From positions 13,020,001 to 13,084,000 of the forward strand of contig CM038915.1 in assembly GCA_021904315.1 (NCBI GenBank): a DNA stretch of 64,000 bases, given 5' to 3'. Shown here one piece after another: positions 6,662 through 45,940 of this stretch (positions within the stretch are counted from its first letter, which is position 1; the number at the start of each line of letters is the position of its first letter). A program made the translations under genes and the position numbers. Under the pieces are notes generated by a model. It searched no databases and was not told the DNA's origin. It worked only from the letters and a program-made list of their open reading frames with translations. This stretch comes from Sphagnum magellanicum. Taxonomy: Eukaryota; Streptophyta; Sphagnopsida; Sphagnales; Sphagnaceae.

Positions 6662-6930
6662 GGGTGAAAATCCTTTAAGGTGTACCACACATGACAAAAA
6701 GGGCCTAGTCCTTATTGTAGTATTTTTTTACCTTCTATTTTTGTCCCAATAAAAAATAATGAATCAAAATTTGTCAAAAATTTCGAAAGGATTATATTTT
6801 AGACCAATTCTTGATTCAATCATAATCATCCATAAATGTATATTTACATGGTAAAAAAGGACTATGTAAAAAAGACATAAAATGGTGACGTTGTGACAAT
6901 ATTTTGGTACACCTTAAAGAATTTACACCC
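6662..6930. mobile_element. MITE family A, copy 1 (TIR CTTTAAGGTGTACC)
   Basis: About 265 bp bounded by inverted repeats: left GGGTGAAAATCCTTTAAGG, right, reversed, GGGTGTAAATTCTTTAAGG, both followed inward by TGTACC. The body matches 29337-29604 over its whole length (shared ATTTTAGACCA, ATCATAATCATCCATAAATG, TTACATGGTAAAAAAGGA). Non-coding and non-autonomous. Confidence 0.8.
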
Positions 6931-9235: not shown

Positions 9236-9650
9236 TTTAAAAAATTATAGTTACCATAGTATATTATAATAGTGAATTATGTCAATTAATAGTGAAACAT
9301 GATGTTTACATAGTGACCCTACATTCAAATAACTTAAACCAAGCTTAAATCATTAAGGTGAAGTGAACTTATTTCATTTTTAAAGTCCCATAATGATTTA
9401 GGCTAGTGAATTATAACCCACTTTTGTACTAGTAATTATTTCTCCAAGCTAGATGTTGGCAAGAACATTGATGCTATATTCATAGTCAAGCTTGACATTC
9501 CTCAACTCATAAAATGGCTATAAGTTAAACAAAATGGAAGATGGCTACATTCTAAAGGTTCCTATCAAATGGCAAAAAAAAAAAAAAAACATGGCAAATG
9601 GATGTAACTACCCACAACATCACCCAATTCACATCCAACTTTGTTAGGAG
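9236..9650. other. Intergenic, nothing recognised
   Basis: AT-rich sequence with an A17 tract near 9574. No gene signal is seen. Confidence 0.4.
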
Positions 9651-9924
9651 TTTTATTATAGTTACAAACTTTTATCCTATTTACTACAGTTAATTTGGGG
9701 TAAGTAAATTTGGAACCATTTTTAGTGTGAACAAAATTCTAACTTTTTGGTGTTCATGATAAGTGGGATAGTGTGTGATTAAAATCTAATTTTCTAGATG
9801 TTGAAGCACACTATAGCTATGTTGTGTCCAATGTGTTTATGTGTTTTTATTATGCAAAAAAATTATTGAGGTTTTTTGTAGGTATTTAGATTATTGTGTT
9901 TTGCAAGTGAATAGAACTTTGAAA
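9651..9924 (+). repeat. LTR-like segment, copy matching 25113-25396
   Basis: Matches the 3' LTR-like region at 25113-25396 over ~275 bp (shared AATTTGGGGTAAGTAA, TGTTTATGTGTTTTTATTATGCA, GGTATTT/GGTACTTGGATT). It lies upstream of the gag relic in the same orientation, so it may be a remnant of the 5' LTR, or a separate solo fragment. The block that starts the 3' LTR is missing here. Confidence 0.5.
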
Positions 9925-12235: not shown

Positions 12236-13480
12236 TTGGAGGTATGTTTGTCAAAAGATTTATTAGGTGGGGGGCATGTTTACGACCACCTACCCCACCT
12301 ACATTATAACTTGAGGGGATTCTTTGAATTTTGGAACAGATGTACCAGTAGTAGTGTCATTACCATTTGTGTGGGACATGGAGGACATGTATGGCACCTC
12401 CAAAAGGCCTTGACAATTTTTGGGGGCGGTCGGCACCATCAAATTAGATGATTTCATTTGGGAATTCGATATTTAATGTGATATGTAACAATTGTGGAAT
12501 CCATAACACCTTTTTTAGCATGGAAAGGTTTATTCCAGTATTTAGAGGGACTGCCCATGGATGATTATCACAAGTGTTGTGATGCCCATGAGGTTGACAT
12601 TGAGGAGTGGCATCAATATTAGTCGCCAAATTAATTTTCCATCACCAAGGGTTGACTGGTTATGTCAATCCCTACTCCATCGACCACTATCACAAGGGCC
12701 AATGTGGGTCCTTCTATGCTGGGGGCAATGGTAGCGATCTGTATGTCAGGGCATGGGCTCTTCCCACTTTTAACCCTGTCACTGAATTTTTTAAGGAGCT
12801 TCACACTAATTACTAAGGTGTGAAGACTAAAAAATTTCGTACATTATAGGAGTTTCAATGCCAACCCCATGAGAGTTTGCAAAAAGCATACATGTGAATG
12901 CAGAAGTTGATGAATGTGACCAAGGGGGTCATAGAGGCCCAAGCTATCCAATTTTGGTATGGGATCTTGGAAAAGGACTTGAGGCGATGGGTGTGAAACA
13001 TAGTTTTCACCCAACTTACCTAGCCCACATTGGCATTGGTTTTCCAAATATCTGAGCACATTGAGCTCAACATGGTGGAAAAGAAGGTTGTTGCCCTAGG
13101 GTTTAATAAGAAAACCCTAAAACCTTCTCCTACCTTGTCAACTCAACAATGACGCGGTCAAACATCAAAAACTACACCACAAAAGGGCAAGGGGCCCAAA
13201 TAGGAACTCGATGGGGGTTCTCATCCTACACTGTTGAACAAGGGAGAGAACATAAGTGTTGGAGGTGTGGTGGGTTGCATTGAAAGAAAGATTATCCTAG
13301 TCCTTTTCAAGCGACCACCTCCAGCCCCAATCATAGCCAACTTTGTTCCGATTGCAAGGTATATGGCCGTGATGTACACCATTACTTCATGTTTCATCCA
13401 GAGTTGTAGCAAGGTCAATCCTAAACGGGAAATGTCGGGAAGTCCCTAGGTTTTAGCAAAGGCTAGAAGGTGAAATGTGC
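12236..13480 (+). pseudogene. Ty3/gypsy gag relic with CCHC zinc knuckle
   Basis: Nucleocapsid/capsid precursor of the retroelement, decayed. A capsid-like stretch runs from about 12540, with EFFKELHTNY at about 12787-12816, QFWYGILEKDLRR at about 12950-12990 and ISEHIELNMVEKKVV at about 13051-13095. It is followed by a zinc-knuckle-like KCWRCGGLH then KKDYP (about 13257-13300), where the last Cys is Tyr and one codon is a stop. A second Cys-His cluster (CSDCKVYGRDVHHYFMFHPEL-like, 13349-13410) follows. Several TAA/TAG/TGA codons and at least one frameshift before the knuckle make it non-functional. It lies directly upstream of the protease, apart from inserted LTRs. Confidence 0.7.
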
Positions 13481-13601: not shown

Positions 13602-14513
13602 TGTCGCAACCTTAGCCTTAGGCTCATGACTAAGGCAAAAGCTTGCAAGGGTGTGGGCCAAGAGTGAGCCTAGGAGTCACATTTCATGTTCCCAGGAGTG
13701 CAAAAGAATGTGAGGGAATGAACCTTCACATTCCTAAGTGAACTCCATTTTGGGAGTTGAAGTCCCAATGGACTCCCGAATTTCTAGAGGGCGATTGTAG
13801 GGGTCAAAATTCATTGGATTGACACATCTTTATATCATTTGAAAGATCTTGGAACGCAAATGCCTGAAATGAGCTCGTATGACCCATTTGGATACCTAAA
13901 ATACAAGTTATGGCCAAAAGAAGAATTGGGAGTCAAATTGGCAATTTGACTCCCAACCACTAAAAGTCAAGAATCAACCCAATTTCCTTGCGTGCAGGTG
14001 ACATGCAACATATTGTTAGAAAGCTCTGGATGAGGGCTACAACTTTGCTTAAGACCTCATTTCGATCGGAGGTCTGCACACAAAATTATGGGCCCCCAAA
14101 GTCGCAGGAGTCCCAAGTTTGGGAATTTCGGGACTCCCATTTGGGAGTCATGGGACAAAATGCCATTTGGATGTGGGCCTCGTGGAGAGGCACATAGTAT
14201 ACTATAAGGGGGAAGGTGGTGGCTTCCCCTAAGTCCGAGCCATGGTGAGTCTTGTGAGTCCAAGTTTGCCCGTGGCTCATCTTAGCACCAAAAGTGCTCC
14301 AATTATGCATTAACCAATTGGTTGCTTGGTTTGTGCAAGTCTATGTGAGTGATTGAAATGCTTGTCAATCTTCCTAGTCCCATCCCGGAGCTCTAGCATG
14401 CCCCTCTACGCCCGAAGTGTTGTGAGCTAAGGAACGTGTTTAACTTCCTATTATTTTGTTATTTCATCTTAAATTCACATTTGAGTCCATTGAGGAGGTT
14501 GGGAGTGCGTCTA
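13602..14513 (-). mobile_element. LTR family B, inverted copy
   Basis: A ~912-bp repeat in inverse orientation to the copies at 14781-15693 and 16769-17644. Read on the - strand it begins TAGACGCACTCCC near 14513 and ends near 13602 in GCTAAGGTTGCGACA, matching the TGATGCAC...AACA ends of the others (first G mutated to A). It probably inserted independently into the gag-protease region of the gypsy relic. Non-coding: open frames inside it are incidental. Confidence 0.75.
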
Positions 14514-14780
14514 ATGAAACCCATAACACCCATGTTAGGTGATTCTTCAACTTAAGGTTTCAACCTTGGACTTTTTTGTGGGGTTAGATTTTTAGGGCCA
14601 TTAAGTTTAGATGAGATCAAATTGAGTATTCCCGATGATCATGTTTTAAAAGCAGTGGGTGACCAAACCCTAGTTAAAGTTTTGACAACTACACCAATTA
14701 GTAGGGCAAATGTTTGAATGCAAAAACCACGAGGTGCTAACAAAATATTAAATCCTCAACGTGGGGAAGCCTAGTGTTAA
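14514..14780. other. 267-bp spacer between head-to-head LTRs
   Basis: Unique sequence between two inverted LTRs whose 5' ends face each other. It carries no recognised motif. It would be the loop if the arms paired. Confidence 0.4.
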
Positions 14781-15693
14781 TGATGCACCCCCAAGCTCCT
14801 CGATACATTCAACTACGAGTCCAAGGTGAAAACAATGAAAGGATAAAGCGTTGGGGTACGTTCCTTAGCTTGTAGCACTTCGAGGGTAGAGGGGCGTGCT
14901 AGAGCTCTAGGATGGGGACTAGGATGAGTGACAAGCGAGTCAATTATTCACACAAACTTGCACAAACCAAACAACAAGTTGGTTAGTGCATTGAAACATT
15001 TTTGGTGCACGGACGAACCACGGGCATACACGGACTCACAAGATTCATCATAGCCCGGGCTTGGGGGAAGCCCCCACCTTCCCCCTTATATTGTTTTCTA
15101 TGTCTAGCCATGGGGCTTGCACGCAAATGTCATTTTGTTTTGGGACTCCCAAGTTGGGAGTCCCGAAATTTCTGAAATTGGGATTCCTACAACTTTGGAG
15201 GCCCATAACTTTTTATGCAGACCTTTGATTGAGTGAGGTCTAATGCAAAGTTGTAGCCCTCATCAAGAGCTTTCCAATGATATGTGGAACGCCATTTGCA
15301 CACAAGTAAATCAAGGTAATTCCTGGTTTTTAATGGTCAAAAGTCAAATTGGTAGTTTGATTCTCGGCCCTTCATTTGGCCATAACTTATCTTTTAAGTA
15401 CACAAATGGGTCATGCAAACCCATTTCAAACATCTACGCCTCAAAAGATTTCCAATAATGTAAGGAACTTTTCGATCCAATGAGTTTTTACCCCTACTAT
15501 TACCTTTTAAAAATTCAAAAGTCCATCTAAACTCCAACTCCCAAAGTGGGAGCCCACTTGGGAGTGTGTGGGTTCATTCCCTCACTCTCTCACACTCCCG
15601 GGAGCATGAAATGTGACTCCCGAGCTTCACTTTTAGCCCGCACCTTTGCAAGCCCTTTACCTTTATCGCAAGCCCAAGGCTAGGGTTGTAACA
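14781..15693 (+). mobile_element. LTR family B, direct copy 1
   Basis: Starts TGATGCACCCCCAAGC and ends GGCTAGGGTTGTAACA, giving TG...CA ends typical of LTRs; length 913 bp. It contains a perfect hairpin GGGACTCCC-AAGTT-GGGAGTCCC (about 15139-15161) and many other ACTCCC/GGGAGT words. A clean target-site duplication is not seen at this copy. Confidence 0.75.
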
Positions 15694-16768
15694 ATCAAAT
15701 TCGTCTGCCATAATCCTTCACGTTGATTGACATAATCTGCACCTTGATGGACGCATCCAACCCCAATAGGGGATCGATTATGACCACTAGATTATCTGAT
15801 TCCACTTCAAGAGTTCAAGCACCCAATAGTCTGTTCGGGGTGGTCAAGTTGGTGTGCCAAACACCATTGTTTTTTGTTATGACTTTGGCAATGCCTAACT
15901 TCCGATCGGCTATAGTATTTCGGATGGCAACCACATGATGTGATTAGGTGGATACACTAAGGATGGTGGCTACATTTGTTGAAGATTTCCAAGAAATCTT
16001 ATTCAACCAACCATATGTTGGCCAACCACTTGTTATGGCGGTACCACCTTGGCATGTCATAGTAGTCAAACTCCAAGAGCTTCTAGCATGCCCACCCATT
16101 GATTAAATAAGAGTTCTACCTGGTGTAATGGTGGTGTGGAATCAGGAAAATGTTTTTCAAATGAAGGGGGCTTCAAGATGATATTATCACCCCAAAGGAT
16201 ATTATTGGATTCAAGAACACAACCTTTGATGTTGGGCAAAGCGATATTGGAGGGTTTAAGGTTGACCGATGCTAATTTGGAACCATGTTCGTACCAAATC
16301 TTGACGTCAATGGGTGGGTCAAAGAGAGCTCAGGGGATAACTAAACATAAGGTTGTCATTAAGGTTAATCATGTTAAACCTATAGATTATACCATGGTCC
16401 ATGTTAAAACAATGGTTACAAAGGCTACATCGTATGCTGTGCTAGTTAGGGGGGTAGTCTTGTACCTATTGGGAGTCACTTGGATTTATGGGAGGAGATT
16501 GTTTATTATCAACTACGATGGCAAATAAGAGATAATTGTAAGGCTTTTTTGCCAATTACTTTCATTGGGGGGCATGTAGGAAAATATAACAATATAACAA
16601 TGTTAACAAGATTTTCAAGGCTTCCTGATGGTTTTGATTTGTTGGAGGGCAATGTCCATGCTATGGATAGCTCCCCTACTCATGAGTTGAAGATGCGAGG
16701 TGCTCAGGTTGGGCCATTCATTTAGGGTTCATCACGTGATCCTCCACCATCATGGGGAACGTTGTTGG
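15694..16768 (+). pseudogene. Retroviral-type aspartic protease relic (gypsy pol)
   Basis: Retroelement protease that would cleave the Gag-Pol polyprotein. The diagnostic stretch is ILLDSRTQPLMLGKA (about 16199-16245), corresponding to the family's LLDSG active site with Gly replaced by Arg. Downstream PCSYQILTSMGGS (about 16290-16325) and YAVLVRGVVLYLLG (about 16433-16473) fit the flap and C-terminal ILVG-like part, followed by GFDLLEGN (16630-16655) in a linker. It is inactive through the Gly change and frameshifts. The relic continues after the solo LTR at 16769-17644. Confidence 0.65.
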
Positions 16769-17644
16769 TGATGCACCCCAAGCTCCTTGATGGACTCAAC
16801 TACGAGTCCAAAGGTGAAGACAATGGAAGGAGAAAAAGTTGGGGCATGTTCCCTAGTTCGCAACACTTCAGGGGTAGAAGGTTGTGCTAGAGCTCCAGGA
16901 TGGGACTAGGAAAAGTGACAAGGAATTCAATTACTCACATGGACTTGCACAAACCAAACAACAAGTTGGTTAGTGCATAGTTAGAGCACCTTTAATGCAC
17001 AGACAAACCAAGGGCAAACACGGATTCACAAAACTCACCATGGCCCAGACTTGGGGGAAGCCACCACCTTCCCCCCTTACAGTATATTTTATGTTTGGCC
17101 ACATGACCAACACCCAAATGTCATTTTGTCCCAGGACTCCCAAGTGGGAGTTTCGAAATTCCCAAAATTGGGACTCCTACGACTTTGGAGGCCCATAACT
17201 TTATGTGTGGACCTCTTATTGAGGTGAGGTTTAAAGCAAAATTATAGCCCTCATTGAAAACTTTCCAATAGTATGTGGCACAATGCCACATGCATGCAAG
17301 GAAATCAAGGCGATTCTAGACTTTTAGTGGTTGGGAGTTAAATCGGAAAATACTCAAATGGGTTATGCAACCCCATTTTAGACATCTACGTTCCAAGAAA
17401 TTTTTAATGATATAAGGAACTTTTCAATCCAATGAGTTTTGACCCTTGTAATTACCCTCTAAAGATTTGGAAGTCTATTGGGACTCCAACTCCCAAAGTG
17501 GGAGCTCATTTGGGAGTGTGGGGTTCATTCCCTCACACTCTCTTGCACTCCTAGGAATATGAAATGTGACTCTTAAGCTCACTCTTGGCCTGCAACTTTG
17601 CAAGCCCTTGCCTTGGTTGCGAGCCCAAGGCTAGGGTTATGACA
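16769..17644 (+). mobile_element. LTR family B, direct copy 2 (solo LTR with near-TSD)
   Basis: 876 bp, TGATGCACCCC...GGTTATGACA. The 5 bases before it are GTTGG (16764-16768) and the 5 after are GTTGA (17645-17649), a 4/5 match consistent with a 5-bp target-site duplication. Reading across the gap suggests insertion into the protease-methyltransferase linker. No internal region accompanies it, so it is best read as a solo LTR. Confidence 0.75.
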
Positions 17645-18790
17645 GTTGAAACTTTAGGCTGATACAAGACATTATTTTCATAAGGCTTAGTGCATTCTAC
17701 CATCACCGAGCCCACAAGTACCTATAGATCCATGCCATGGACCACTTGGTTTATAACTTTTGGATTCTAGGGTTATTTAATGGCATATTTTCAAGGATGG
17801 GATTTGTCTAGTAAAGTTTTTTGGAGGCATTAATTTCGGCCTTGCAATGGTCCTTCAATTGGGCATCATGGTTCACTGATACCATTACGTGGAGAAGGAT
17901 CTTCAAATTCGGCAAGTCTTCATGCACCATATTATGATGTTGCGACAACAACATTTTCGGTTGTTGCATGCATCAGCAGTCCAAAGTTACCAACGCACCT
18001 TATCAAATAACATCACATTGTTAGGGGTGCAATATTTGGATAGGATCGAACTAGTGGACTTGGTCATATTAGGATGTTGTGTTAGGGTTTATCACATGGC
18101 ACAGGTCAAGGACTTTCATACCCCAGATCAGGGTTATTTTGGGAGTTAATTCGAATGCTATAATATTTGCAAACCTTTCAATTACATTCATGTGCATATG
18201 TGTTGGAAAATGTCCCACCTTTGGGGGATTATCGGCCAGTTATATTGGCAACATGGAAACAAATTAAAGCTTGGATTGGGAAGTTAGTGCAAGTGGATGT
18301 TGCAGCTGTTGGTTCATGTGCCCACCACTTTCAATGGCTATGGACTAACCTAGCTTTGCCAAAGGTATTTTAGAGCGCATATCCATTCATTTCAAAGTCA
18401 CCCACATGCTTGGTGGATGATATTTTGGATCCAAGATGACATTTTTCAACCATTCAATATGATGATCGACCGCCTTTAGCTATGGTCAACAGGGTTGGCC
18501 TACCTTGGGTAGCACTACTTACTCTTTTGAGTTTTTTGTGTTCTCACACATTTCAGGATGGCAGTCCAAGCATGATTTGGGACGTTAATTCATCCAAGAT
18601 GGAAGAGCTCAATGCTGATGAATGAGAATGAGCTATGGGATTTTGCACAAACACCATAGTTGTGCAAGGGATTTTCGAAGGTGCTCGTAGATGGATATTG
18701 GGACAAGTTATGGATCTTACCTATTTCACATGGATATTTAACTTTTGTTGGGTTGAACAAGTCTGATTTGCATAGTTTTTCCCTCCAACC
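17645..18790 (+). pseudogene. C5-cytosine DNA methyltransferase domain inside gypsy pol
   Basis: A DNMT-like domain that in life would transfer a methyl group from S-adenosylmethionine to cytosine C5. The motifs appear in canonical order: motif I FFGGINFGLAMVLQLGI (17817-17867, SAM binding); VDLVILG just before motif IV (about 18054-18074); the catalytic Cys codon TGT at 18080-18082, followed by a stop in place of the usual Gln and then GLSHGTGQGLSYPRSGLF; motif VI LENVPPLGD (ENV at 18206-18214); a motif VIII-like AHHFQWLWTNL (18320-18352), where the two expected Arg are His and Gln; and a motif IX/X-like AMGF...ILGQVMDL (about 18632-18717). A one-base deletion at about 18078 shifts the frame right before the catalytic Cys. 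Motifs IV to X stay in a single frame. The order of motifs looks closer to DNMT3 or bacterial types than to the rearranged DRM order. It sits between protease and RT of the same element. Confidence 0.8.
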
Positions 18791-19079: not shown

Positions 19080-20085
19080 TACAAAATATGAGGTGCAAGA
19101 AATACAACGGCTATTGCAAGATCATGTTGGTTGTTTGCTTTCAGTTTGAAAAAATTAAAACAGTTGAGAAAATAAGAGGTCCAAATTGTATTGGAGGATG
19201 ATTATCCTATTTTTAAATGACCTTATAGGTTGAATGAGATGGAGAAGGCCTTAGTTCAAGCTCGGACAATAGAATTCTTGGATGCAAGCTTGGTGGAACT
19301 ATTAAGAGGTGATTATGCTTTAACCATTGTGATGTTAGCTAAAAAGGATATTTTTGGCAATTGGACGGAGTGATGCATGTGTGAGGATTATTGCCCAATC
19401 AACAAGCGCATGCATTTGAACAAGTATGCCATGCCCTTTCTGTAAAAGACTTTTGATACCCTTGGTCAAGCTAAGGTTTTTAGTACCTTCGACTTGACAT
19501 TTGGCTACCATCAGTTGGCATTGAGGGAAGGTGACAAGGTCAAGATGGCATTTTGGGGAATCGATCCTCATGGGAAAGATTGTTTGTACCAATGGCAATT
19601 TTTGCCATTTGGTTTAAAGAATGCCCCTGTAGAATTTTAGAGGGTGATGGATCAGGTGTTAGTAGGACTTGGTTTTGCCAAATGCTACATCGATGACATT
19701 ATCGTCTTCAGCCCAACAATAAAAGATCACGAACATCATCTCCAGGAGGTACTTAGAAGACTTAAGGATCATAACCTTAAGTTTCATCTAAGCAAGCATT
19801 GGTTTTTCCAAACACATGTGGAATACTTGGGTCACATGATTTATCCTGGTGGATTGGGGGTACAAAAGGCCAAGGTTGAAGCCATTTCATAGGTACCCCA
19901 GCCAACAAATGTCAATCGGTTATAAGCCTTTTTAAGCTTGTGTAATTATTACCAGAGATTTGTTAAATGATTTAGTAGCATTGCTAAACCTTTAATTAGG
20001 TTGACGTAAATTGACTAGGAGTATGTTTGGGGTGAGGAGCAGGAGCAGGCATTTTAGGAATTGAAGGCCAGGCTTTCCTTAGCCC
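19080..20085 (+). pseudogene. Ty3/gypsy reverse transcriptase relic
   Basis: RNA/DNA-directed DNA polymerase of the retroelement. Seen in order: STFDLTFGYHQL (first catalytic Asp, about 19480-19515), LPFGLKNAP (about 19602-19628), the active-site box YIDDIIVFS (about 19686-19712), YLGHMI (about 19827-19845), and connection-region residues YYQRFVK (about 19948-19968). Gypsy rather than copia is indicated by YIDD with this spacing and by the RT-RNaseH-IN order. In-frame stops occur (TAG after APVEF near 19637; TAG near 19890). Confidence 0.88.
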
Positions 20086-20089
20086 CCAA

Positions 20090-20525
20090 CTTGAGGCGAC
20101 CCATTCGAGGATGTCTTTTTTAGTTACATACTGATTAGAGTACTTTAAAGCTAAAAGTCATGCTTACCCAACTAGATGATGATGGTCGAAAGTTTGTGGT
20201 GGCATATGTTAATCAATCCAACAATAAGACAAAGGTGAGGTATAATTCATATGAGGGGGAATGCATCACTATTGTTTGGGCGGTTTCTTATTTCCAGTGC
20301 TATTTGTATGTTAGCCCATTTATCTTTCACTAGCCCTTAAAGTTTTTTATGGAATGAGATCGACTCACAGGCGAGTTGGCTAGGTGGGCGCTTATCTTAC
20401 AGGAGTACGATTTTGATATTGTTCATAGGGTTGGTAGGGTTAATTGAAATGCCGATGGGTTGAATCAAAACCCAAGTTCTAGCAAGGAGGATACCACATG
20501 TGCCAGGTGGCATGGAGAGGTGAAT
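20090..20525 (+). pseudogene. Retroelement RNase H relic
   Basis: RNase H domain following RT in the same frame. It shows the LHTD-x-STL start (about 20125-20150), DDDGRKFVVAYVNQS (about 20175-20220), YNSYEGECITIVWAV (about 20241-20285), and the tail LARWALILQEYDFDIVH (about 20377-20428), typical of gypsy RNase H C-termini. Stops interrupt it (for example TAG near 20339). It would degrade the RNA strand of the RNA/DNA hybrid. Confidence 0.8.
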
Positions 20526-21195
20526 TTGGAGGCTATGCCATGATGGCATGCTTTTACATACCCATGTACTTTGTTGGGATGTTATGGGGATGTACCTTAG
20601 GGCAACATGGGTGGTGGGAATTCCCAAAGTGATGATGACGAGTTAGAAGGCAATAGTGCCATGGACATCCATCTAAATTTACATGTTATTGCATATTTAC
20701 AAGTCGGTGAGGTTTCGGTGGGATTGACATCCAAGGAATGAGATTAGGTTGTCCACATGGCAAAATTGTTTCGATGGGAACGTGATTCAATATTACGGGT
20801 GTAGATAGATCAGCACGTACAGGTAGTACCATGCCCAAAGCAATGTGAGGGCCTTGTACAACATGCTCATGAGGAGTTGGGCCATTTTGGGGTTTGACAA
20901 ACCTATAGTTTGTTCTAGGCACATTATTGGTGGTGTGGGATGCAACTATAGGTTAAGTAGTTTGTTTTTTGGTGTGTGGTGTGTGATCAAGTATCAACAT
21001 CATTCAAAACACTAACACCCCAACTACAACCCTTATTAATTATGGGGTTGCATTATCGATGGAGCTTGGATTTTGTTGGCCCATTCAGTTTGACACTTTG
21101 ACATAATCGTTATGTTTTGGTTATGATCGAGCATTTCTCCAAGTGGTTGGAGTTGATACCCTTGCCATATCACAATAATGAAAAAGTTGCATGTG
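20526..21195 (+). pseudogene. Integrase relic, N-terminal part
   Basis: Integrase N-terminus of the same element. The zinc-binding HHCC module is visible as HEELGHFG (about 20860-20895) and CVVCDQV (about 20974-20995). The first catalytic Asp lies in SLDFVGPF (about 21063-21090). The frame is the same as RT. The coding path breaks at VAC (21186-21195), where a 2.66-kb insertion begins. Confidence 0.8.
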
Positions 21196-21710
21196 AGCCA
21201 TGGATTATAGCTCAATAGTTAGTTAAGCCTTAGTTCCGTAATTTTCTTTAGTACTAATGATTAGAATGCTTATAAGCCTCCAAGTAGTGATTATTAATAG
21301 TTGAATTAGCCTTTGTGATATTTCGAGGCATATAATACTTTCGTTATTTTAGTTGATGTAACGTTTAATCAGTTAAGCACCTAGTAAACCTTTTAGAGTA
21401 CATTATCCCTTTTATGTTGAAGAGAAGGGAAAGGGGATGTAGAATTAGATGTGATTTATTAATAGATAGGAAATACAAGCCATAATTAACAATAATATTT
21501 CGCCATGACAAGGTTAAGTTACTCTGTAGAAGAATCTTCAAACACTAATGATGTACTTGTAAGATTGTTAGGATGTAGTCTTAGTACATCTTTATTTAGT
21601 TTCATTTCTATCAGTCTTCTAAATAGAATTAATTCAAACTTAAGTATTAAACACTTCCGCCTGAATAGCCTCAGGTGAATTACAACTGAATAACTGACTT
21701 AAAGGATAGA

Positions 21711-22123
21711 TCACAGTTGTAAAAAATCTAGGATGCGGCGAATGGTGCGAGCGAGGTACTCGGCTCGATGCTCCAGGGGAAGTGGGTTGATCGGGCCTCG
21801 TAGCCAATGATAATGGCCATCACCGGGAACCCACGTTCGACAATGGAGATGGACATCATCATCTTCGCATTGGCACTCTTCAAATCTTTCTGGCGCGGCT
21901 CCACGAGTAAGAACAAACTCTAAATAAATTGCTAAAACACATGGGTTAGGAGACAATCGACGATCCCACACCGAACGAACGACTTGAGTGCGCACCACTC
22001 TCCTGGGCGGTTCTTCTTCGCGCGGCCGTTGAGAAACATTCAAATCGAACGGTGCTTCTTCAAGTTCTTCTTGTTATACAGGTGTGACTGGAGGATTTGA
22101 AGGCGTAGTGTCATCGTCCGCCA
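21711..22123 (-). pseudogene. Small unknown ORF with early stop, inside the insertion
   Basis: Starts at ATG (22123-22121) as MADDDTTPSNPPVTPV, then a TAA, then an uninterrupted 121-codon stretch to 21711. It is Arg/Glu/Pro-rich at first (RPREEEPPRRVVRTQVV), then has a denser segment with Cys and His (CQCEDDDVHLHCRTW). Local GC is higher than the flanks. I do not recognise the family. It could be a transposon ORF or a captured host fragment. Confidence 0.4.
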
Positions 22124-23029
22124 TGACTAATTGCGCCTACATCAACAAAAAACCAAGGAGGTGCAAACAAGGTGGTACTTGCGTTCAAAAAAGGGTCGAG
22201 GCCTTTTTATTTAACAAATTAGGGTAGGCGTAAAGTGTGGGAATGACGGCGGAACTTCATCAAAACTCGAACACCTTAGATCTAAGGGATTCATCAAACC
22301 CTAAATTCAACGGTGGATCTAGAAGTGTGTGAGAGTTTTCTTTTGTGATGCAAATTGTAATTTCGATTTACTATGTACTACATAGTTAATTAGTGCATAA
22401 TAAAGTAAATAGGTAGGGAATATCAAGGAGTAAATATTACACGGAAATGTTACTTCAACCATTGAATTAGTCAAGTAAGAACTCAAGGACTCTTCCTTGT
22501 TACTACCGATAATTTATCCTAGTAGTTAGTTATTTGAAGTAATTAGGATGAAGAAGTAGGATGTGAGGGTCAACGGACGGAAAAGATAAGGATCAAGCAA
22601 GAGACCTCATCAAGATATCCAAGATAAAGGGGAGATTGGATCCTCCAATCCCATTAGTCATGAGGATTGTTATCCTCTTTGATTGGAGGATGAAATATCT
22701 CTTGTGTTCCATTGGGCCCAAGGATTCTCATCCTAATTTCAATTGGATGGCCATTCATTCTCAAATTCTCATTGGCCCTTGAAGGATGAGGAGGCCATTG
22801 ATTGGTGCAAAGGGATTTCAAAGCTTTCATTGGACAAAGGGAACAAGCTCAAGGAAGGTCATGGAGGCTTACCAAGGCGGAAGGCATTGTGTGTATGTGA
22901 AAAAAAGAGAAGGAAGAGGAGAATGAAGTGTGAGAAAGGTTGTTAGTTCTTGTGTGTGGGAGGTGTTCATGGAAAGGTTATGAAAAAATGAAGCATGGAA
23001 TGGAGTTGTGTGTAGCAAGTATTGTAATG

Positions 23030-23605
23030 AAGCCTCTGGACTTTGGTTTAATTAATTGTTCTTCTCAAATCCACCGTTGGATTTGTCTCAAAATTAGATC
23101 AGTGTTAGTTCAAAAGGTGTAAAAGCTCCTCCCAAAAATTCAGCGCCATCGGTTTTGCTGTGAGGGAGTTACAATTGTTGAAAGTAGAGGGTGTTGAAGT
23201 GGGTTTCATGGAATGATTTCCATGGGGAAGCCTCTGGACTTTTGGTTTAATTAATTGTTTCTCTCAAATCCACTGTTGGATTTGTCTCAAAATTAGATCA
23301 GTGTTAGTTCAGAAGGTTTAAAAGCTCCTCCCAAAAATTCAGTGCCATCGGTTTTGCTGTGAGAGAGTTACAATTGTTGAAAGTAGAGGGTGTTGAAGTG
23401 GGTTTCATGGAATGATTTCCATGGGAAAGCCTTTGGACTTTTGGTTTCATTAATTGTTTTTCTCAAATTCACCGTTGGATTTGTCTCAAAATTAGATCAG
23501 TTTTAGATTGAAATGTGTAAAAGCTTCTCCCAAAAATTCAGTGTCATCGGTTTTGCTGTGAAGGAGTTACATTTGTGAAAGTAGAGGGGGTTGAGTTGTT
23601 GTTTT
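23030..23605. repeat. Three tandem ~195-bp repeats
   Basis: Three copies beginning near 23032, 23230 and 23430, each with AAGCCT-TGGACTTT-GGTTT, ATTTGTCTCAAAATTAGATC, CTCCCAAAAATTCAG and ATCGGTTTTGCTGTGA. The first two copies are more alike than the third. Non-coding, within the 2.66-kb insertion. Confidence 0.85.
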
Positions 23606-23853
23606 TTCCCTCAATCTAAACAAGTGATTTTTAGTTTCGGGCTTAACTTTTGGTCAAAGACATAAATAAAATAAAATAAAAAATAAAATAAAATCATGAG
23701 ATTTGGACACAACACATTAGATTTTTAGTAAAGTTCATTACTTACCTTGAACCACCTAACTCGTTAGACTTGAACTACATAGTAGTTCCACTTGTAACCG
23801 GGTTTTTCGTGAGTGCATATCTTAGTGGTGGAAGTGTGCAAGAAATCCTCACA

Positions 23854-24620
23854 TTGCATATGCATTTCTAAACAAAGTGCTTAATGGGTTTGGTGCTCCA
23901 GCAGAAGTTCTCATCGACCAAAGTACGAAATTCCGAAGGGATTCCTAGGATTTGTGTGAGAAGGCATTAATAGATCATTGGACTACTTCACAATATCATC
24001 TAGAAGTAAACGGGTTGTCGAAGGAAGGTTACAGATTGAAGGGAAGATTATGGAAATATGGCCTTCAAAAAAACCACAATCAAGATTGGGACTTGTAGTT
24101 ACCATGGTTGGCCATGGGATATAGGTTTAGTTGGTAGGCCTCATTAACATATTTTTCATTTTATTTTATGTTATTCGGTCGAAATCTTGAACTACCAGCC
24201 TCTATTCAACATGATGCTATGACTATAATTAATCTTAATGATCCTGTAGTGTGGGTTCAGGCATGTGAGCAATGGGTTGTTTTGTTCAAGCGGGTGATGC
24301 CTATGGCTATGGAAAATCTGGCAATTTTTTAGCACCAAGATATTCTTCAATATGCCACAATTCAAGGAAGAGGTTATTGACCTTGGGTTCGTAGGTTTGA
24401 GCTAGGGGATTGTGTTTATTTATAACAAACAACAACCACCACATTTGATGTGATTACAAGTAATGTGATTTTGCATGTTCAAAAGGTCCTACCTTTTAAA
24501 GTATTGTTGTTGGAAGGATGAAATGGTCACAAATGGAAGGACCATGTGTGTAATTGTGCACCATGTCATCTTCCCAATGTGGATGGCCAAATTGACCCAT
24601 CCTTGGCCATTATATTTGTT
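23854..24620 (+). pseudogene. Integrase relic, catalytic core and C-terminal part
   Basis: Continuation of integrase in the same frame as before the insertion. It shows FGAPAEVLIDQ (second catalytic Asp codon at 23916-23918) and NGLSKE (catalytic Glu codon at 24024-24026); exactly 35 codons separate them, the D-x35-E signature. A C-terminal domain follows with RRFELGDCVYL (about 24390-24425) and KVLPFKVLLLEG (about 24483-24518). Stops are present but no frameshift. It runs directly into the PHD finger. Confidence 0.82.
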
Positions 24621-24626
24621 GGTTTA

Positions 24627-24770
24627 CGATATATGTTGTGTGGGTAGTCCATAGGAACTACCATTATGTTGGTTTATGACCAGTGTTCAAGAGGATGGCA
24701 CATGGCATGTTTGACATTGCCCTTGGACCAGGTACTGGTTGGCAAATGGTTTTGCCTTCGGTGCACCCAA
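24627..24770 (+). pseudogene. PHD finger at the C-terminus of gypsy Pol
   Basis: A C4HC3 zinc finger in the same frame as integrase, with no frameshift between them. Pattern seen: Y-x2-C (24630-24641), 11 codons including one stop, Y-x2-C in YDQC, then SRGWHMAC (C-x4-H-x2-C), 14 residues, then WFCLRC (W-x-C-x2-C). The two Tyr sit where PHD fingers have Cys; both are TAT, one transition from TGT. The W before the last Cys pair and GWHMAC are hallmark PHD positions. Many PHD fingers read histone H3 tails; a chromatin-targeting role, analogous to the chromodomain of chromoviruses, is inference. TAG at about 24768 ends the frame. Confidence 0.78.
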
Positions 24771-24995: not shown

Positions 24996-25016
24996 AAATA
25001 GGGGGGCGGTTTAAAA
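24996..25016 (+). promoter_or_regulatory. Polypurine tract candidate
   Basis: AAATAGGGGGGCGG immediately upstream of the LTR-like start TGTGGTGTACC. This is the expected position for plus-strand priming in an LTR retroelement. Confidence 0.5.
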
Positions 25017-25495
25017 TGTGGTGTACCATTTAGGGTATTTTTATGTAATTTGTTGTGAGTATGGTGACATCAATAGTTGTACGCGTTGACCTTGGAACAC
25101 ACAACAATTGTCAAAAGTTTTACTATAATTATAATTTTTTTATCTTAATTACTATAAGTAATTTGGGGTAAGTAAGTTTGGAACCAATTCTAGTGTGAAT
25201 GGGATTCTAGCTTTTTGGTGTTTAGGATAAGTGGGACGGTGTGTGATCAAAATTCATTTTTTTGGATTTTGAAGCACACCATAGCTTTGTTATGTTCTAC
25301 TATGTTTATGTGTTTTTATTATGCAAGGAGTTTGTTGAGGTTTTTTTGTTGGTACTTGGATTCTTGTGTTTTGCAGGTGAATAAAACTTTGGTTTGGATG
25401 TGGTGTACCAGTTAGGGTATTTTTACATTATGTGTTGTGAATATGGTGACAATGATAGTTATAGGTGTAGACCTTAAAATGCACAGTAACTTAAA
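25017..25495 (+). repeat. 3' LTR-like region of the gypsy element
   Basis: Starts TGTGGTGTACCATTTAGGGT just after the purine tract. The first ~80 bp recur 382 bp later at 25399 (TGTGGTGTACCAGTTAGGGT), and the part in between (25113-25396) matches 9651-9924. It is either a partial tandem LTR or an LTR with an internal duplication. The boundary at the 3' end is unclear. Confidence 0.5.
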
Positions 25496-29336: not shown

Positions 29337-29604
29337 GGGTTGAAAATCCTTTAAGGTGTACCATAGAGGACAAAAAGGACTTTATTATATTCATTTTTAC
29401 TTTATATTTTGATCCCCATAAAAACTAATGAATAAAAAATTATCAAATATTTTAGAAGGACCATATTTTAGACCATTACAATTCTAGATTCCATCATAAT
29501 CATCCATAAATGTGTTTTTACATGGTAAAAAAGGATAAGGTAGAAAAGACAAAAAAAGGTGACATTGTGACAAGATTTTGGTACACCTTAAAGAATTTGG
29601 ACTT
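29337..29604. mobile_element. MITE family A, copy 2
   Basis: Second full-length copy of the 6662-6930 element. The ends are AAATCCTTTAAGGTGTACC and GGTACACCTTAAAGAATTT (inverted repeats with one mismatch). The interior aligns throughout. Non-coding. Confidence 0.8.
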
Positions 29605-40395: not shown

Positions 40396-43205
40396 CTACT
40401 GGGAGCCCAGATCCACCTTGCTGAAATGCTGTAGTTGTAGCTCATAGCCTGTTGGAGAAAGTGGTGGGAGCTGCTGCTGCTGCTGATGATGATGGGCACC
40501 CAGATCCAGCTTGCTAAATTGCTGTTTTAAAAGTTCATAGCCTGTTGGAAAAAGAGGTGAATGCTGCTGCTGGGGCCCCAGATCCCACTTGCTGAACTTC
40601 TTTTGTGGAATGTCAAAACCTGGTGGAGAGAGAGGTGGCAGCTGCTGCTGATGTTGGTATGATAGTCTCTCCACCTCCTTCATCAAGGCTTCACTGTGAG
40701 CTGCAAACAGAAAAGACACATGCTCAGACAATGTTTCATAACTTTCACATTTGTCCATGAGACTAATGTCCCAAAAACCAAAACCTTCATTGAGTAACAA
40801 GGTGATAAAGTCTACAGGAAAGTCTGCCTCTAAAGCCAAGGACAGAGCTTGGGCATGGATTGAAGATCTGAACCCAAGCACTTTCCTGCAAGCAACAAGC
40901 TGTCATGAGACTGCAGAATACAAAATACAAAAAAATACTCACCTTCTTTGATCCGTTGGGTTTGTCCAAGAGTTGCCAACTTTTGTTTCAGGATAACGTT
41001 TTCAGCAGTCATCACTGCTCTCCGATGATCATACAAACTGAGCTGCTGTGAAAGAGAGGTGACCTCAGTCTGCAATCCAGGAGAAGCATCCTCAGGATCA
41101 AAAATAATATAGATTCAACTTGACCACACCTAGGTTAGAATCAAAACTACTGCACGTATATTCTTCAAGGTGATGGTTTGCATACCTGTAGTGCATTCAC
41201 ACTCATTTCTAGCTCAGAGATATACTGCAACTTCCTCACCCGCGATCTCTGAGCTGATTGCCTGTTCGCAAGAATCCTGTGAAAGAATGCTGCAGTCAAA
41301 TCAATTATATGCTCTAAAGACCATGCTGCATGGAACCCAAGCCAGCTCACAAGTACTTAGCATAGTAATCATTGCCAGAAATGAGGACAATTTACCAGAC
41401 TCAGAATCCTAGTCAGCCCAGATATACTACCCTTGAGGGCAAATTGCACATCAAAGGATCACACATTAGAACAAGCAAAAATGGGCTGTACAAAGTACAA
41501 AACCATGTCAAAAGAGTGACAACAGATACAATTGAAGTGATGAGCAAGAATGGCCTTTCCCCATATTCACAATAGAAGTGCCTGTTCATAAACAATCTTG
41601 TCATCTGAGAGACACAACTCAGCTGGCTAGAATCACTTCATGTTCTATACATTCCAGGAAATTGGAAAAGTTTCCCTCTTTAACCAATTCACAACCCTTG
41701 AGGGAAGGCCAGAAACACTACCCTTAAAGCAAAATGCACCCCAAAGGATCACACATTAGAATAAGCAACAAAGGCTTTACAAGGTACAACATTATGACAA
41801 AAGAATGAACATTACATTGAAGAGTGACAATTTAGCCATCTTGACATTAGAAATCATACTGTACACATACAAATATAGTCATCTGGGATCCACAATCAGC
41901 TGGCTAGAATTTCACAAACCTAGCTTAATAATATTTGACTAATCAAATTCCAGACCATCAGAATGCTGGTTGCAGCGGCAATTACAAAAGAGGTCCTGTC
42001 CTGTAACTGATTGCCAGAGTTAGCAAATAACTGTACATGAAACTCACCGCTTTGCTTTCTTGGGATCCAGACTCGGATCAATCTGCTCAGATGTTGTTTG
42101 TGTATCCTCCTGTTGTCCTTGGTGAGAACAATCACCCTCCCTCATGTTTGGAACTTGAGCCTCACTTTTACACTTCCCCAGGCTTACTCTCTGCTCATCA
42201 TTGGATCCTTCACTGTGGCTATTACTATCAGAAATACTCTCAGCATTTACATTGGTTGGCTTTTGTTTTCTCAAATTTTCCCAGACTACTGTATTGTTTG
42301 AAGAGCCATGGAGTGAGTTCCTAAGCAGATGTCTCATGCCCCTCTCCAAGGTCCAGTTGTCACCAGATGAACTGGGTCTCACTGCATTAGCAATCATAGC
42401 CCTAGAGGCCACAGTACCCTCAGCTCCCTGCTTGGGTTGCCTCTGGAAAGGTTCCATCTTGGCAAGCACAGAAACAAGCTGTTCTTCGTCCAGCCTATTA
42501 ATGCTGCAGATAAATCAACCCATCATGTCAAAATTCCATTGAGCTCTATATTGCAAGCCCTCTGAGATTTGGAGAGACCCAGAGCCTTCTCACATACCCA
42601 GCACAATGTAGACTGCATCTGCACAGAGTTGGTAATTCTTTTCTGCTACAATGCCAAATTTGCTTGAGGTTTTTATTGGAACCCAGGTCTATATTTCCTT
42701 GCAAATAATGAATGTCTGCTGAGATGGCTCACCTGTTGTAGTCTGGAATCACATTCCTCAACATATGAGCACCACGAGCACCACACACATATTCCTCCTC
42801 AGCAGTGGATTGGCCTGCAACAATGCTTTTGAAGTCATAAGGGCTTTCCTGGAATGCAGCTGAATCACTAGAAGATCGCCGATGTGAGCCCTTCTTAACT
42901 GTAGCAACAATATCTCCATCAGGTGACTCCAGAATCTCCTCCAACCATGGACGCTGCAACTGTGGTAGATACCCAGCAGAAGGGGTGCGTTTGTGGCTGC
43001 TGCCATGAGATGGGAAGCTTGAATGCACATTGAATATGTTACCACCTTCAAACAAGCTTGATCCCCCAAACATTGAGTAACCAGGGCTTTTCGGCGGCAA
43101 GTGTGCTGAATTGCTCATGGGATGAGACCAGTCGATCGATCGTCCCTCCCCTCTTCCTGAAGAAAGGCTATCCATGCTGATAGACAGATCGCGACAATGG
43201 GGCAT
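40396..43205 (-). CDS. bZIP transcription factor, plant group E-like (five exons)
   Basis: Nuclear DNA-binding regulator. Exons on the - strand: 43205-42733, 42503-42048, 41276-41186, 41069-40943, 40700-40396; 1452 nt, 483 aa. All four introns are GT-AG and phases close exactly. Domains: LPPK (36-39) and PWLEEILE (86-93), as in group E/I N-termini; HKRTPS (71-76) and HRRSSS (108-113), both HxRxxS; basic region DPKKAKR then ILANRQSAQRSRVRKLQYI (304-329) with N314-x7-R322; zipper positions L332, L339, L346, Y353, M360, L367, L374; then AHSEALMKEVERL (383-395). AQRSRVRKLQYI points to group E (Arabidopsis bZIP34/bZIP61) rather than group I. The group E zipper Pro is Gln348 here. The C-terminus is a three-fold repeat (403-483). 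Start: ATG at 43205 chosen; ATGs at 43175 and, in frame, 43349 are alternatives. Confidence 0.93.
41400..41915 (-). repeat. Tandem duplication inside bZIP intron 2
   Basis: 41425-41632 and 41690-41912 share, in order, CTACCCTT-A, AAAGGATCACACATTAGAA-AAGC, TACAA-GTACAA, and the end CAGCTGGCTAGAAT. Copies are diverged with small indels. The intron is 771 bp, much longer than the other three (229, 116, 242), because of this. Confidence 0.7.
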
Positions 43206-45940
43206 ACAACCTGTCCAGCAGCAGAAGTTGATGAGAATCAGTAGAAGAGAGAAGCAGCAGCTGGAGGATTCGAGTGCTCCATGCCCTCCTCCTCCAAATC
43301 TGATAAACAGTACAAATGAAAGTCTAACTAAACACTCTTGGAGTATCATGTACAGTTTCTATGCAAAGCAAAGAGTCCATCAGGCATATGATCACCAAAT
43401 AACAAGTCTGTGCACCATTTGGTCAGTCTACCTGGTGTACAAGCAATAAAACATGACACAAAAGCAGCAATATGAAAAATTCTAAAAACTGAAAACATAC
43501 AGAAGTTGCTTGCAAATCACAATGTTATTACAGCTTTTTTCTCATGGCATACATACAGAGAACAAGGCAGCATGTGTAGATGAAACTGAAATTAGGTCAG
43601 CAATCAGCAAATTCCATAAGCTTCAGCAAAACAAAAGCTGAACACATGAAATGGTGAAACCCCCACCCAGCCACCCACACACAGCATGCAGTTGGAGCAA
43701 GCAACATCACCTTCCTCTAGTCGCTGAATTTTGCATATTGGCATTTTGCAAAGGCAGAGGAGGAATGGCTTGTGCAGAGCAAATACAATCAGCAGCTATC
43801 ATTACAAGTAAGGATCAGGAACATGAAAGTGGAGCATCCCCAGTCTGTTGCAGTAGTCACTAACCTTGTGATAAAGAGGCAGATCAACACAAGAGTTTGT
43901 GTTGGGTCAGATTGAAAAGAGAGAACTTGGACAGTCTGATGATTGATTAGAGGGAACTTTGATCAAAAAGTGAGGTTCCACTCTTCTCTTGTTGCTCCTC
44001 CATGCAAACGCCAATACATACAATAATCGCTATTTGGTGAAGCAGCATTTTCTCTTTTGTTTCTTCTTCTTGCAGGCATGCAATCCTTAGAATGCTTGCT
44101 TCCGTGAAGAGCAGCGGCTTAGTTTCTCCAGTAACAGATCCCTTCAACTGTAATCACAAAGAAAGAATCACTCCTGCTTTGGATTTATGCCCTTTATTAT
44201 CTGATGCGCGCTGCATCCACATGCAAAAACGTATGCTTCTATCTTGATAAGATTCACAATAATTCAGGATCGACATCTTGGAAGACACCCTTGGCAGTCA
44301 TCACCAGTAGTCCGTCCCCCTGAGGAGGCAACAACAAGACGCCCGACCGAGAGAAGCTGAAAGCGCTCGACCTGCGACGACAATTGTCGGAGGATCTATT
44401 GCTTGCCCGTATGTGCTACTGCAGCGTGTCTGGATCGATATCAGCGTTGTTTCTTCTGATCATCACCTCCGCTTATTCATCGCCATCACTTTTTCTGCAG
44501 ACTAAGTTTCACGAACGACGCTGTCTCATTGTTCTAATCAGAAGAAGCTTCCAGCATCAGCCACTGAAGAACAACAATATCATAATACGAGGAGAACACT
44601 TCTTCCAAGGACGAGAGAGAGAGAGAGAGAGAGAGAGAGGTGTTGGCAACAACGCCTGGCTTGGCCGAGGGAAGAGAGAGAGAGAAAAGAACCATCGGCG
44701 TTGTGTTATCGTTGCATCCCAAAATTGTGAACTCTCTTGTTCCAGAAGACCGTTATTCCTGGCGGAAGTCTTCAAATGTACGCGTTCTTTCTCTAATGGC
44801 TGTGCTTGTCGTTGTCGCTATAGAAGAACTGCAGCGGCAGCGAGAGACGCTGTCTTCTCTCTTCTCTCCAACATGAAATTGCTACTTGTAAAAGACTACG
44901 TAAGAACGCAAACGAACAAACGGGCGCCACGCGCATACACAGACGAAGTGCACAAGCACTTCAAAAAATCAGCTCAGCACTACACCAAGTTCTCGATGTG
45001 CATCACACATGAAGAAGACATCTCTATCTCTCTCCCCCCCCGCTGCTTCCAGTGACTTTCGAGAAGAAGAAGAAGCAGCTCCTCCAATGCCACGAACTGA
45101 ACTTCTCAAAGACTACATTTCTAGCTAAAACCTCGAACATCGATCGCGCAACAAATGAAGTAGATACTTAATCTTCTTCAAAATCGTCTATACAAAGGTC
45201 GTCCTACCAGCAGCAGCAGCAACAGCATCGGATCAGTTGTAAAACCTGTCGTCGCCACAGCTCCTCCATACCTCACTAGATCAACATCGTCATCGTCATC
45301 GTATATTAGTACTCCGATCGCCTCCTCGCAATCATCAAGCTGTCCTCGTCATTGCTCAATGGCCTCAGAGACGACAACAGAGACACACTACTGCTACATA
45401 CACACACCAGTAACAACAAAAACAAAATCACGAAAGAAAGAAAGAAAGAAACGCCTAAAACTACAAAACCTCCCACTAACTCTTCTTCTTTCCTATTTCA
45501 TCAAGCCTTTCCAAATCTTCCTCCTCGTCAGGAAGAAAGAGAAGCCAAAACCACGACGCCTCCTCCTCCTCCTCCTCAATCCCTCCCTCAACAACACTAC
45601 GTCTCACCTCCTCAAAGACCTTTGGTAAGAGAAACAATCGCATCGAATCCCTCTCTCCTACTTCGCCTCCTCCTTCCACAACCAGGATTCTTTCTTTCCC
45701 CAAACCTCAAGCTGCCACTCCCACTCCATCACGACTTCCAACACACTACTAGACTCTCTCCTTACCCAAAAAGCTCTCAAAATCAGCAACACATAAGAAG
45801 AGGAGAGGAGAGGCGACAAGACCACTCACAAGCATCAAACCAAGGCAGAAAAACAGGAAAGGAGGAAACAGAAGAAGCGACAACAACGCTTCCCTCTCCA
45901 CTTCCTCTCCAGAAAACAAACCAAAAAAAAAAAAAAAGAG
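43206..45940 (-). promoter_or_regulatory. bZIP leader/promoter region, pyrimidine- and purine-rich
   Basis: Higher-complexity DNA than the rest of the window. A (GA)n run at about 44614-44639 reads (TC)n on the gene strand, common in plant 5' leaders. From about 45400 to 45900 the + strand is rich in CTCC/ACAAC, suggesting a divergent leader or simple-sequence bias. Long open frames here (44384-45055 and 45352-45948, +) start at non-ATG codons or are low-complexity, so I do not call them genes. No clear TATA box on the - strand. Confidence 0.4.
43238..43282 (-). promoter_or_regulatory. Candidate 14-codon upstream ORF of the bZIP mRNA
   Basis: ATG (43282-43280) gives MEHSNPPAAASLFY then TGA (43240-43238), 33 nt before the chosen start, in a different frame. 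It counts as a uORF only if the mRNA 5' end lies upstream. A good acceptor (TGTTTATCAG) just upstream at about 43300 suggests a 5' UTR exon begins there. Confidence 0.4.

Follow-up and report, generated by a model that had tools for sequence, protein, structure and literature searches.

The window analysed here, a stretch of 64,000 nucleotides of the peat moss Sphagnum magellanicum (contig CM038915.1, positions 13,020,001 to 13,084,000), contains a dead gypsy-type retrotransposon copy that almost certainly belongs to a streptophyte family of elements that have a DDE integrase and regularly encode a C5-cytosine DNA methyltransferase within pol. We are equally confident that the polyprotein order of this element is gag, protease, DNMT3-type methyltransferase, reverse transcriptase (RT), ribonuclease H (RNase H), integrase, and PHD finger. 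Taken as a whole, i.e., the identity of the element together with the way in which it may work, this account is very probably the best explanation of the data. A methyltransferase fused in retrotransposon pol of land-plant DNA had been proposed in a reading of the sequence only, and this proposal was borne out by homologues and domain order, by a target-site duplication around the element ends, by relatives with open frames elsewhere in the genome, and by the predicted DNMT3-like fold of a relative.

The coding parts of the window were mapped by tblastn with proteins of open relatives belonging to two lineages of the same genome, S1 and S2, whose individual copies are given L numbers. The features of the element, with the evidence for each, are as follows.

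9638-9641, plus strand: target-site duplication ACTT, left copy, 4 bp (identical ACTT after B2, by eye)
9642-9921, plus strand: terminal repeat A1, starting with TG, left end (284-bp alignment with A2, 81.7% identity)
12414-13128, plus strand: gag remains in three frames (tblastn with the S2-lineage gag of L019, E 2.4e-36)
16136-16761, plus strand: aspartic protease remains (LLDSRTQPLMLGKA) and the following part, two frames (tblastn, relatives of both lineages)
17748-18763, plus strand: DNMT3-type C5-cytosine methyltransferase domain, broken (two frames, in-frame stops)
19131-19898, plus strand: RT remains (PF00078 in two pieces; 57% to the L019 RT, E 1.4e-93)
20151-20600, plus strand: RNase H remains, ends approximate (PF17919 and PF17917 on 20139-20330; tblastn)
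20601-21191, plus strand: integrase remains, first part, start approximate (L019 integrase 64% at 20961-21191; RT-to-integrase protein of L023 through 21191)
21192-23852, no strand: sequence of about 2.7 kb interrupting the integrase (integrase matches end at 21191 and restart at 23853)
23853-24494, plus strand: integrase remains, second part (53%, E 1.3e-59)
24486-24767, plus strand: PHD finger remains (59% to the S2-lineage PHD of L019, E 3e-35)
24999-25009, plus strand: G-rich tract before B1, polypurine-tract-like (similar tract ahead of B1 in the S1 and S2 copies inspected)
25016-25106, plus strand: terminal repeat B1 (self-comparison)
25109-25391, plus strand: terminal repeat A2, 2 nt past B1 (self-comparison)
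25398-25488, plus strand: terminal repeat B2, right end (self-comparison)
25489-25492, plus strand: target-site duplication ACTT, right copy, 4 bp (by eye)

The Ty3/gypsy pol order of protease, RT, RNase H, and DDE integrase is present in this map together with Pfam assignments on relatives, in which the integrase consists of rve and H2C2 domains. Detection of PF00628 in the S1 relative L009 supports the identity of the PHD finger, and Pfam gave no match on the protease pieces of the window themselves. The interrupting sequence within the integrase includes a 199-bp tandem repeat of 2.9 copies at 23029-23594.

When all six frames of the window were compared with a profile hidden Markov model built from 32 relatives, the methyltransferase site was the sole place matched. 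The first piece (17748-18074) covered profile positions 61-169 with an independent E-value of 1.7e-25, and the second (18080-18763), which lies in another frame, covered positions 172-400 with 6.5e-76; the best score among 500 shuffles of each piece had an E-value of 4.2. All of the landmarks named in the sequence-only reading, FFGGI, GLSHGTGQGL, LENVPPLGD, AHHFQWLW, AMGF, and ILGQVMDL, are read in the window as described, and the domain lies close to the extent given there, 17800 to 18790, with true limits slightly earlier at both ends. The copy is dead, being spread over two frames with several stops, and its motif IV is damaged both by the frame change and by a stop that comes, in the second frame, after the codon for Cys. 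The suggested PF00145 check had a divided outcome: a Pfam scan of both decayed pieces gave no match, PF00145 included, so that the identification as a methyltransferase rests on relatives, and three of the seven relatives scanned (P0022, P0016, and P0015) passed the PF00145 cut-off. These seven were drawn from 27 related proteins found with the second piece alone (E 7.8e-69 to 2e-13). Further protein searches yielded 112 relatives from the query P0022, and at least 63 when a copy from the same genome was used as query and the best 8000 candidates were scored. In the domain, the observed-to-expected CpG ratio is 0.37, little different from the 0.33 of the window as a whole, and thus gives no special sign there.

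Relatives were then sought in the whole genome (439.0 Mb, 31 contigs). A PF00145 search gave at least 124 matches, some of them possibly host genes, with 123 of 387 candidates scored, and a search with the second piece of the window gave at least 151, with 150 of 936 candidates scored and 150 listed. Of these 150, 69 show identities of 50% or more, the window among them, and apart from one fragment of 121 residues each of these has stops inside the matched stretch, which makes the window's own lineage look dead among the copies scored; 35 others are 38-49% identical and 46 are 30-37% identical, 17 of the latter stop-free. Open frames are retained in lineages S2 (about 44% identity) and S1 (about 32%). 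The S1 copy L009 has one frame of 2379 amino acids in which Pfam finds protease, methyltransferase, RT, RNase H, integrase, and PHD, and the S2 copy L019 has the methyltransferase in a frame of 846 amino acids, with breaks elsewhere, such as a stop in the PHD finger. The sequence-only reading would have been contradicted if intact relatives lacked the motifs at this position, which is not the pattern observed; the search for intact copies led instead to long open frames of both lineages that carry the domain in the same place. Upstream of gag, S1 elements have short-repeat arrays that are open in several frames (L010, 8500-9903; L011, 8940-10000).

The association was also examined from the RT side. 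A search of the genome with an S2 RT gave at least 140 matches (140 of 3652 candidates scored), and for 96 of these 140 a methyltransferase match in the same orientation is listed at an upstream distance of 775-2083 bp (median 1121). Of the remaining 44 RT matches, the first eight were inspected with 2.4 kb of upstream sequence, and the domain was present in five. These RT-anchored counts indicate that the methyltransferase is a regular part of the retrotransposon family.

The domain itself is a C5-methyltransferase of the DNMT3 type, with motifs I, IV, VI, VIII, and X in linear order and DNMT3 as its best match. The family profile aligns to DNMT3A in three stretches of the same linear order; the circularly rearranged order of DRM was not seen, and the family profile aligns only to the last part of DRM. 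Animal DNMT3A/3B and the Sphagnum family are alike in the motif order and, as predicted for one relative, in the fold of the catalytic domain, whereas in the Sphagnum family the PHD finger comes last in a retrotransposon polyprotein; Pfam scans of relatives detected no further partner domain of the DNMT3 type. Chromoviruses, i.e., gypsy elements bearing a chromodomain, also have a chromatin-reading module behind the integrase, but in the Sphagnum element this module is a PHD finger and pol contains a methyltransferase as well.

Integration yields a unit with A (TG) at its left end and B (CA) at its right end, which has no ordinary pair of long terminal repeats (LTRs): two full-length direct LTRs were not found in the window copy or in the long- and short-form copies with both ends in view. 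The long form, A-internal-B-A-B, is represented by the window, six S1 copies, and two S2 copies, with duplications TAGG (L010 with L033), CAGC (L012), GTTC (L014), CAAT (L015), ATAT (L020), and GCAC (L021) in S1 and TTTC (L028/L029) and GCCT (L030/L023) in S2. The short form, A-internal-B with nothing further, was found with both ends in view in three S1 copies and one S2 copy, with perfect duplications CTCT (L009, S1), GGTT (L018, S1), and CTTG (L019, S2); L013, L016, and L024 are also of the short type on the right side, with the left end out of view or partly visible. With flanks read by eye, the 4-bp target-site duplication is thus present in the window, in eight of eight long-form copies, and in three of four short-form copies. 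The window insertion is old, since A1 and A2 are only 81.7% identical (Jukes-Cantor distance 0.21); a blastn comparison of its terminal repeats with four S2 stretches was negative. Elements of the DIRS/PAT-like class have a tyrosine recombinase instead of a DDE integrase and are not known to make a target-site duplication, and PAT-like members have split direct repeats in the order A1 ... B1 A2 B2. The Sphagnum element has the same split repeats, but assignment to that class was rejected on the basis of the rve/H2C2 integrase in relatives and the 4-bp duplications; the second form lacking the extra A-B is a further difference.

Relatives extend beyond Sphagnum magellanicum. Among the 63 proteins from the search with the own-genome copy, 26 are listed with an organism name: at least 20 of the 63 are from Marchantia polymorpha, in more than one assembly, and the other named matches are from Calypogeia fissa (two), Sphagnum troendelagicum (one), S. 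fallax (one), and Closterium (two). The domain stands ahead of RT and RNase H in P0148 and P0171 of Marchantia and in P0194 of Closterium, and P0196 of Closterium has the order zinc knuckle, protease, methyltransferase. P0093 begins with the end of an RNase H, followed by the methyltransferase, and in P0190 RT is aligned at 2-192 and the methyltransferase at 513-857; judged from these sequences, the methyltransferase seems to have moved within pol in this sub-lineage. One family member, P0040, is annotated as a DNA cytosine methyltransferase and assigned to a genome bin of Candidatus Obscuribacterales; our guess is contamination with plant DNA.

How the domain serves the element is a more tentative matter, and the following mode of working is held with slightly less than an even degree of belief. 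The methyltransferase would enter the particle as part of pol and remain with RT and integrase, where it would set 5-methylcytosine on the newly made element DNA or on the DNA into which the element inserts; the new copy would thereby begin methylated and tolerated. Methylation by the element of its own complementary DNA (cDNA), as already suggested in the sequence-only reading, is what we infer for the first of these targets. The PHD finger behind the integrase would read a histone mark and tether the complex, thereby picking the site. Because integrated copies start with A and end with B, integration probably proceeds via the joined B-A ends of circular DNA, which the integrase would open, and B1-A2 would be a copy of these joined ends that is required for a terminally redundant transcript.

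Selection was assessed in 12 S1 copies (11 for the PHD finger). The pooled ratio of nonsynonymous to synonymous polymorphism (pN/pS) was 0.211, 0.286, and 0.119, and the median ratio of nonsynonymous to synonymous substitution rates (Ka/Ks) was 0.203, 0.289, and 0.101, in the methyltransferase, RT, and PHD, respectively; the pairs are non-independent, and stops, contained in four of the 12 domains, were skipped in counting. These values suggest that the S1 methyltransferase is under constraint at least as strong as that on RT. In S2, figures of 0.51 and 0.60 rest on few changes and speak neither for nor against constraint.

Several observations weigh against the account given so far. Three of the eight RT loci inspected have no detectable domain within 2.4 kb upstream, and the diverged short-form copy L017 (one of four) has no matching duplication. 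Stops are present in the methyltransferase of 4 of the 12 S1 copies, and the S2 value of 0.51 is a Ka/Ks from three copies and three pairs. The position of the domain after RT or RNase H in P0093 and P0190 means that a place next to the protease is non-essential. The methyltransferase domain of a Klebsormidium gypsy element gave no methylation in yeast, which its authors judged inconclusive (PMC5890265, main text). Moreover, in S1, which comprises the best-preserved copies, 12 of 12 copies, namely L009-L018, L020, and L021, have GWECQG where S2 has GWPCQG, and this replacement of Pro by Glu in the catalytic Pro-Cys pair may, from the sequence, lower or alter catalysis.

This last point leads to the possibility that the domain is retained for binding DNA, RNA, or reverse-transcription products rather than for methyl transfer, with the Pro-to-Glu lineage as the clearest case; we consider this unlikely, although it is the strongest of the alternatives. 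In its favor are the Glu-Cys-Gln (ECQ) sequence in every S1 copy combined with the low median Ka/Ks of 0.203, and the recurrence of Glu-Cys among homologues. In the 160 aligned stretches of homologues in which neither column is empty, motif IV reads Pro-Cys in 152, Glu-Cys in six (P0177, P0178, P0186, P0187, and, from Closterium, P0194 and P0196), and Ser-Cys in two; since Glu-Cys is common to Sphagnum and Closterium elements, the change looks old. However, the motif IV Cys and Gln are retained in 32 of 32 aligned rows, Pro-Cys prevails in the 152 stretches, and the predicted fold and the motif order match those of active DNMT3 enzymes. It is still less probable that the domain works for the host or keeps the element in check, i.e., that methylation of its own copies limits transposition and lessens harm, so that the element persists. 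A restraining role is among those proposed in the main text of PMC5890265, and the coexistence of several lineages in one genome is in line with it, but as a general argument, selection for self-restraint within an element lineage is hard to sustain.

Phylogenetic analysis favors an old association. A first tree contained 56 sequences that passed the coverage cut, from 136 proteins and nine own-genome sequences, and a second, of 84 rows, combined 30 sequences of the first with 54 out of 60 newly added ones (six, including P0196, were dropped for coverage). The element domains formed one clade apart from 10 DNMT3-like outgroup proteins in the first tree (support 100/100), and 77 rows formed one clade apart from seven DNMT3-like proteins in the second (100/100); the window domain, whose placement in a DNMT tree had been suggested, falls inside the element clade. 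The window copy groups with S2, Calypogeia, Marchantia, and other Sphagnum rows, weakly (81/73), and S1 is placed elsewhere in the 84-row tree, in which long branches and weak deep forks leave the positions of S1 and Closterium not firm. A single clade of all eight Sphagnum rows was rejected (approximately unbiased test, p-AU 0.00096, for a group chosen after tree inspection), and hence at least two lineages coexist in Sphagnum. A recent separate capture from Sphagnum's own DNMT3 gene, as opposed to an old family trait, is left with one point, that the tree includes no host DNMT3; it is very improbable given this rejection and the fully supported clade with Marchantia, Calypogeia, and Closterium inside. 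A host methyltransferase gene fragment lying by chance inside one degenerate element, which has the decay of the window copy and nothing more to commend it, can be dismissed as practically refuted by the 96 of 140 listed RT matches with the domain at a similar distance, by the single open frame uniting protease, domain, RT, and integrase, and by the domain-RT or protease-domain order in Marchantia and Closterium proteins.

Returning to the retrotransposon family with its own methyltransferase, a broader picture may be drawn, one that we hold somewhat more loosely than the mode of working above. The methyltransferase may be an ancient, fixed component of streptophyte retrotransposons, from Closterium to liverworts and mosses, that forms with the PHD finger a writer-reader module for the methylation state and site of new insertions. 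Ordinary LTRs would have been given up, the DDE integrase inserting DNA opened at the joined B-A ends, and the ECQ branch, having exchanged Pro-Cys for Glu-Cys, would have kept the domain under selection, from zygnematophyte algae to peat moss, in a second, altered function.

Capture of cytosine methyltransferases by retrotransposons was described in 2018 for dinoflagellates and one charophyte (PMC5890265), and the precedent named in the sequence-only reading was right in this respect, the genera being Symbiodinium and Klebsormidium. De Mendoza et al. (2018, PMC5890265) described KnitGypsy-Dnmt3 of Klebsormidium nitens as having gypsy domains together with DIRS-like repeats. It resembles the Sphagnum element in its unrearranged Dnmt3-type domain in a gypsy Pol frame and in its DIRS-like repeats, and its domain is under purifying selection (Ka/Ks <0.2, PMC5890265), as the S1 domains are also constrained; no named Klebsormidium sequence is among our protein matches, and the likeness rests on the features described. 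In contrast to KnitGypsy-Dnmt3, the Sphagnum element resides in a land plant, its ends resolve into two arrangements, A-internal-B-A-B and A-internal-B, bordered by TG/CA and flanked by 4-bp duplications, and its family has a PHD finger ending the polyprotein and several coexisting lineages, one with ECQ. The terms PHD, moss, and Sphagnum do not occur in the main text of PMC5890265. SymbioDIRS-Dnmt3 and SymbioLINE-Dnmt of dinoflagellates are likewise retrotransposon-borne C5-methyltransferases, but belong to the DIRS and long interspersed nuclear element (LINE) classes, and the captures are treated as independent in that text (PMC5890265). The SymbioDIRS methyltransferase gave CG methylation in yeast, and methylation of cDNA was argued for SymbioDIRS by the same authors (PMC5890265).

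Three repeats of about 900 bp each in the window look like solo LTRs of another family.

13602-14511, minus (relative to R2/R3 only): nested repeat R1, solo-LTR-like, outside the element proper (75-77% identical to R2/R3)
14775-15693, plus (relative to R1 only): nested repeat R2, solo-LTR-like, outside the element proper (self-comparison with R1 and R3)
16763-17644, plus (relative to R1 only): nested repeat R3, solo-LTR-like, splitting protease from methyltransferase

The 5-bp duplications around them, read by eye, are approximate only (4/5 for R1 and R3, 3/5 for R2). They were rejected as the element's own repeats because of their mixed orientation, their 75-77% likeness, and the fact that R3 parts domains adjoining in relatives. 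The methyltransferase had been placed between a gypsy protease and RT, and both flanks were confirmed, with 16763-17644 now recognized as a later nested repeat and not as part of the element. Two copies resembling a miniature inverted-repeat transposable element (MITE), at 6662-6924 and 29338-29598 and 82% identical, flank the element; they were rejected as outer LTRs because the ends of each copy are mutually inverted, as in a MITE. On the minus strand, 40396-43358 contains exons resembling a host basic leucine zipper (bZIP) transcription factor gene, with PF00170 on a 42-residue piece and no Pfam match in the three open stretches beside it. A tandem array at 50096-50532 has a unit of about 75 bp with GGGTTTAGGGTTTAT-like sequence. 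No Rfam families or transfer RNAs were found in the window, a plasmid search by distant blastn gave no match, and viral contigs searched with P0022 gave eight pattern matches and no relatives.

A gypsy element carrying DNMT3 has been a known kind since 2018, and the Sphagnum family extends it to bryophytes. Searches of open PubMed Central papers brought up no report of methyltransferase-carrying elements in land plants; as far as these searches go, the presence in moss and liverwort, the regularity within the family, the PHD partner, and the ECQ branch are new, as are the resolved ends with two integrated forms. The related open copies in mosses and liverworts suggest that gene capture of this kind, so far described from algae, has long been established in the mobile DNA of land plants and has persisted there. 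If a land-plant family combines several lineages and open frames with a constrained domain, methyltransferase capture would be a lasting strategy, and some of the DNMT genes counted in bryophyte genomes may be copies of such elements. Sphagnum and Marchantia are genera in which methylomes and genetics are feasible, and hence, the question of whether an element gains by methylating DNA itself becomes testable.
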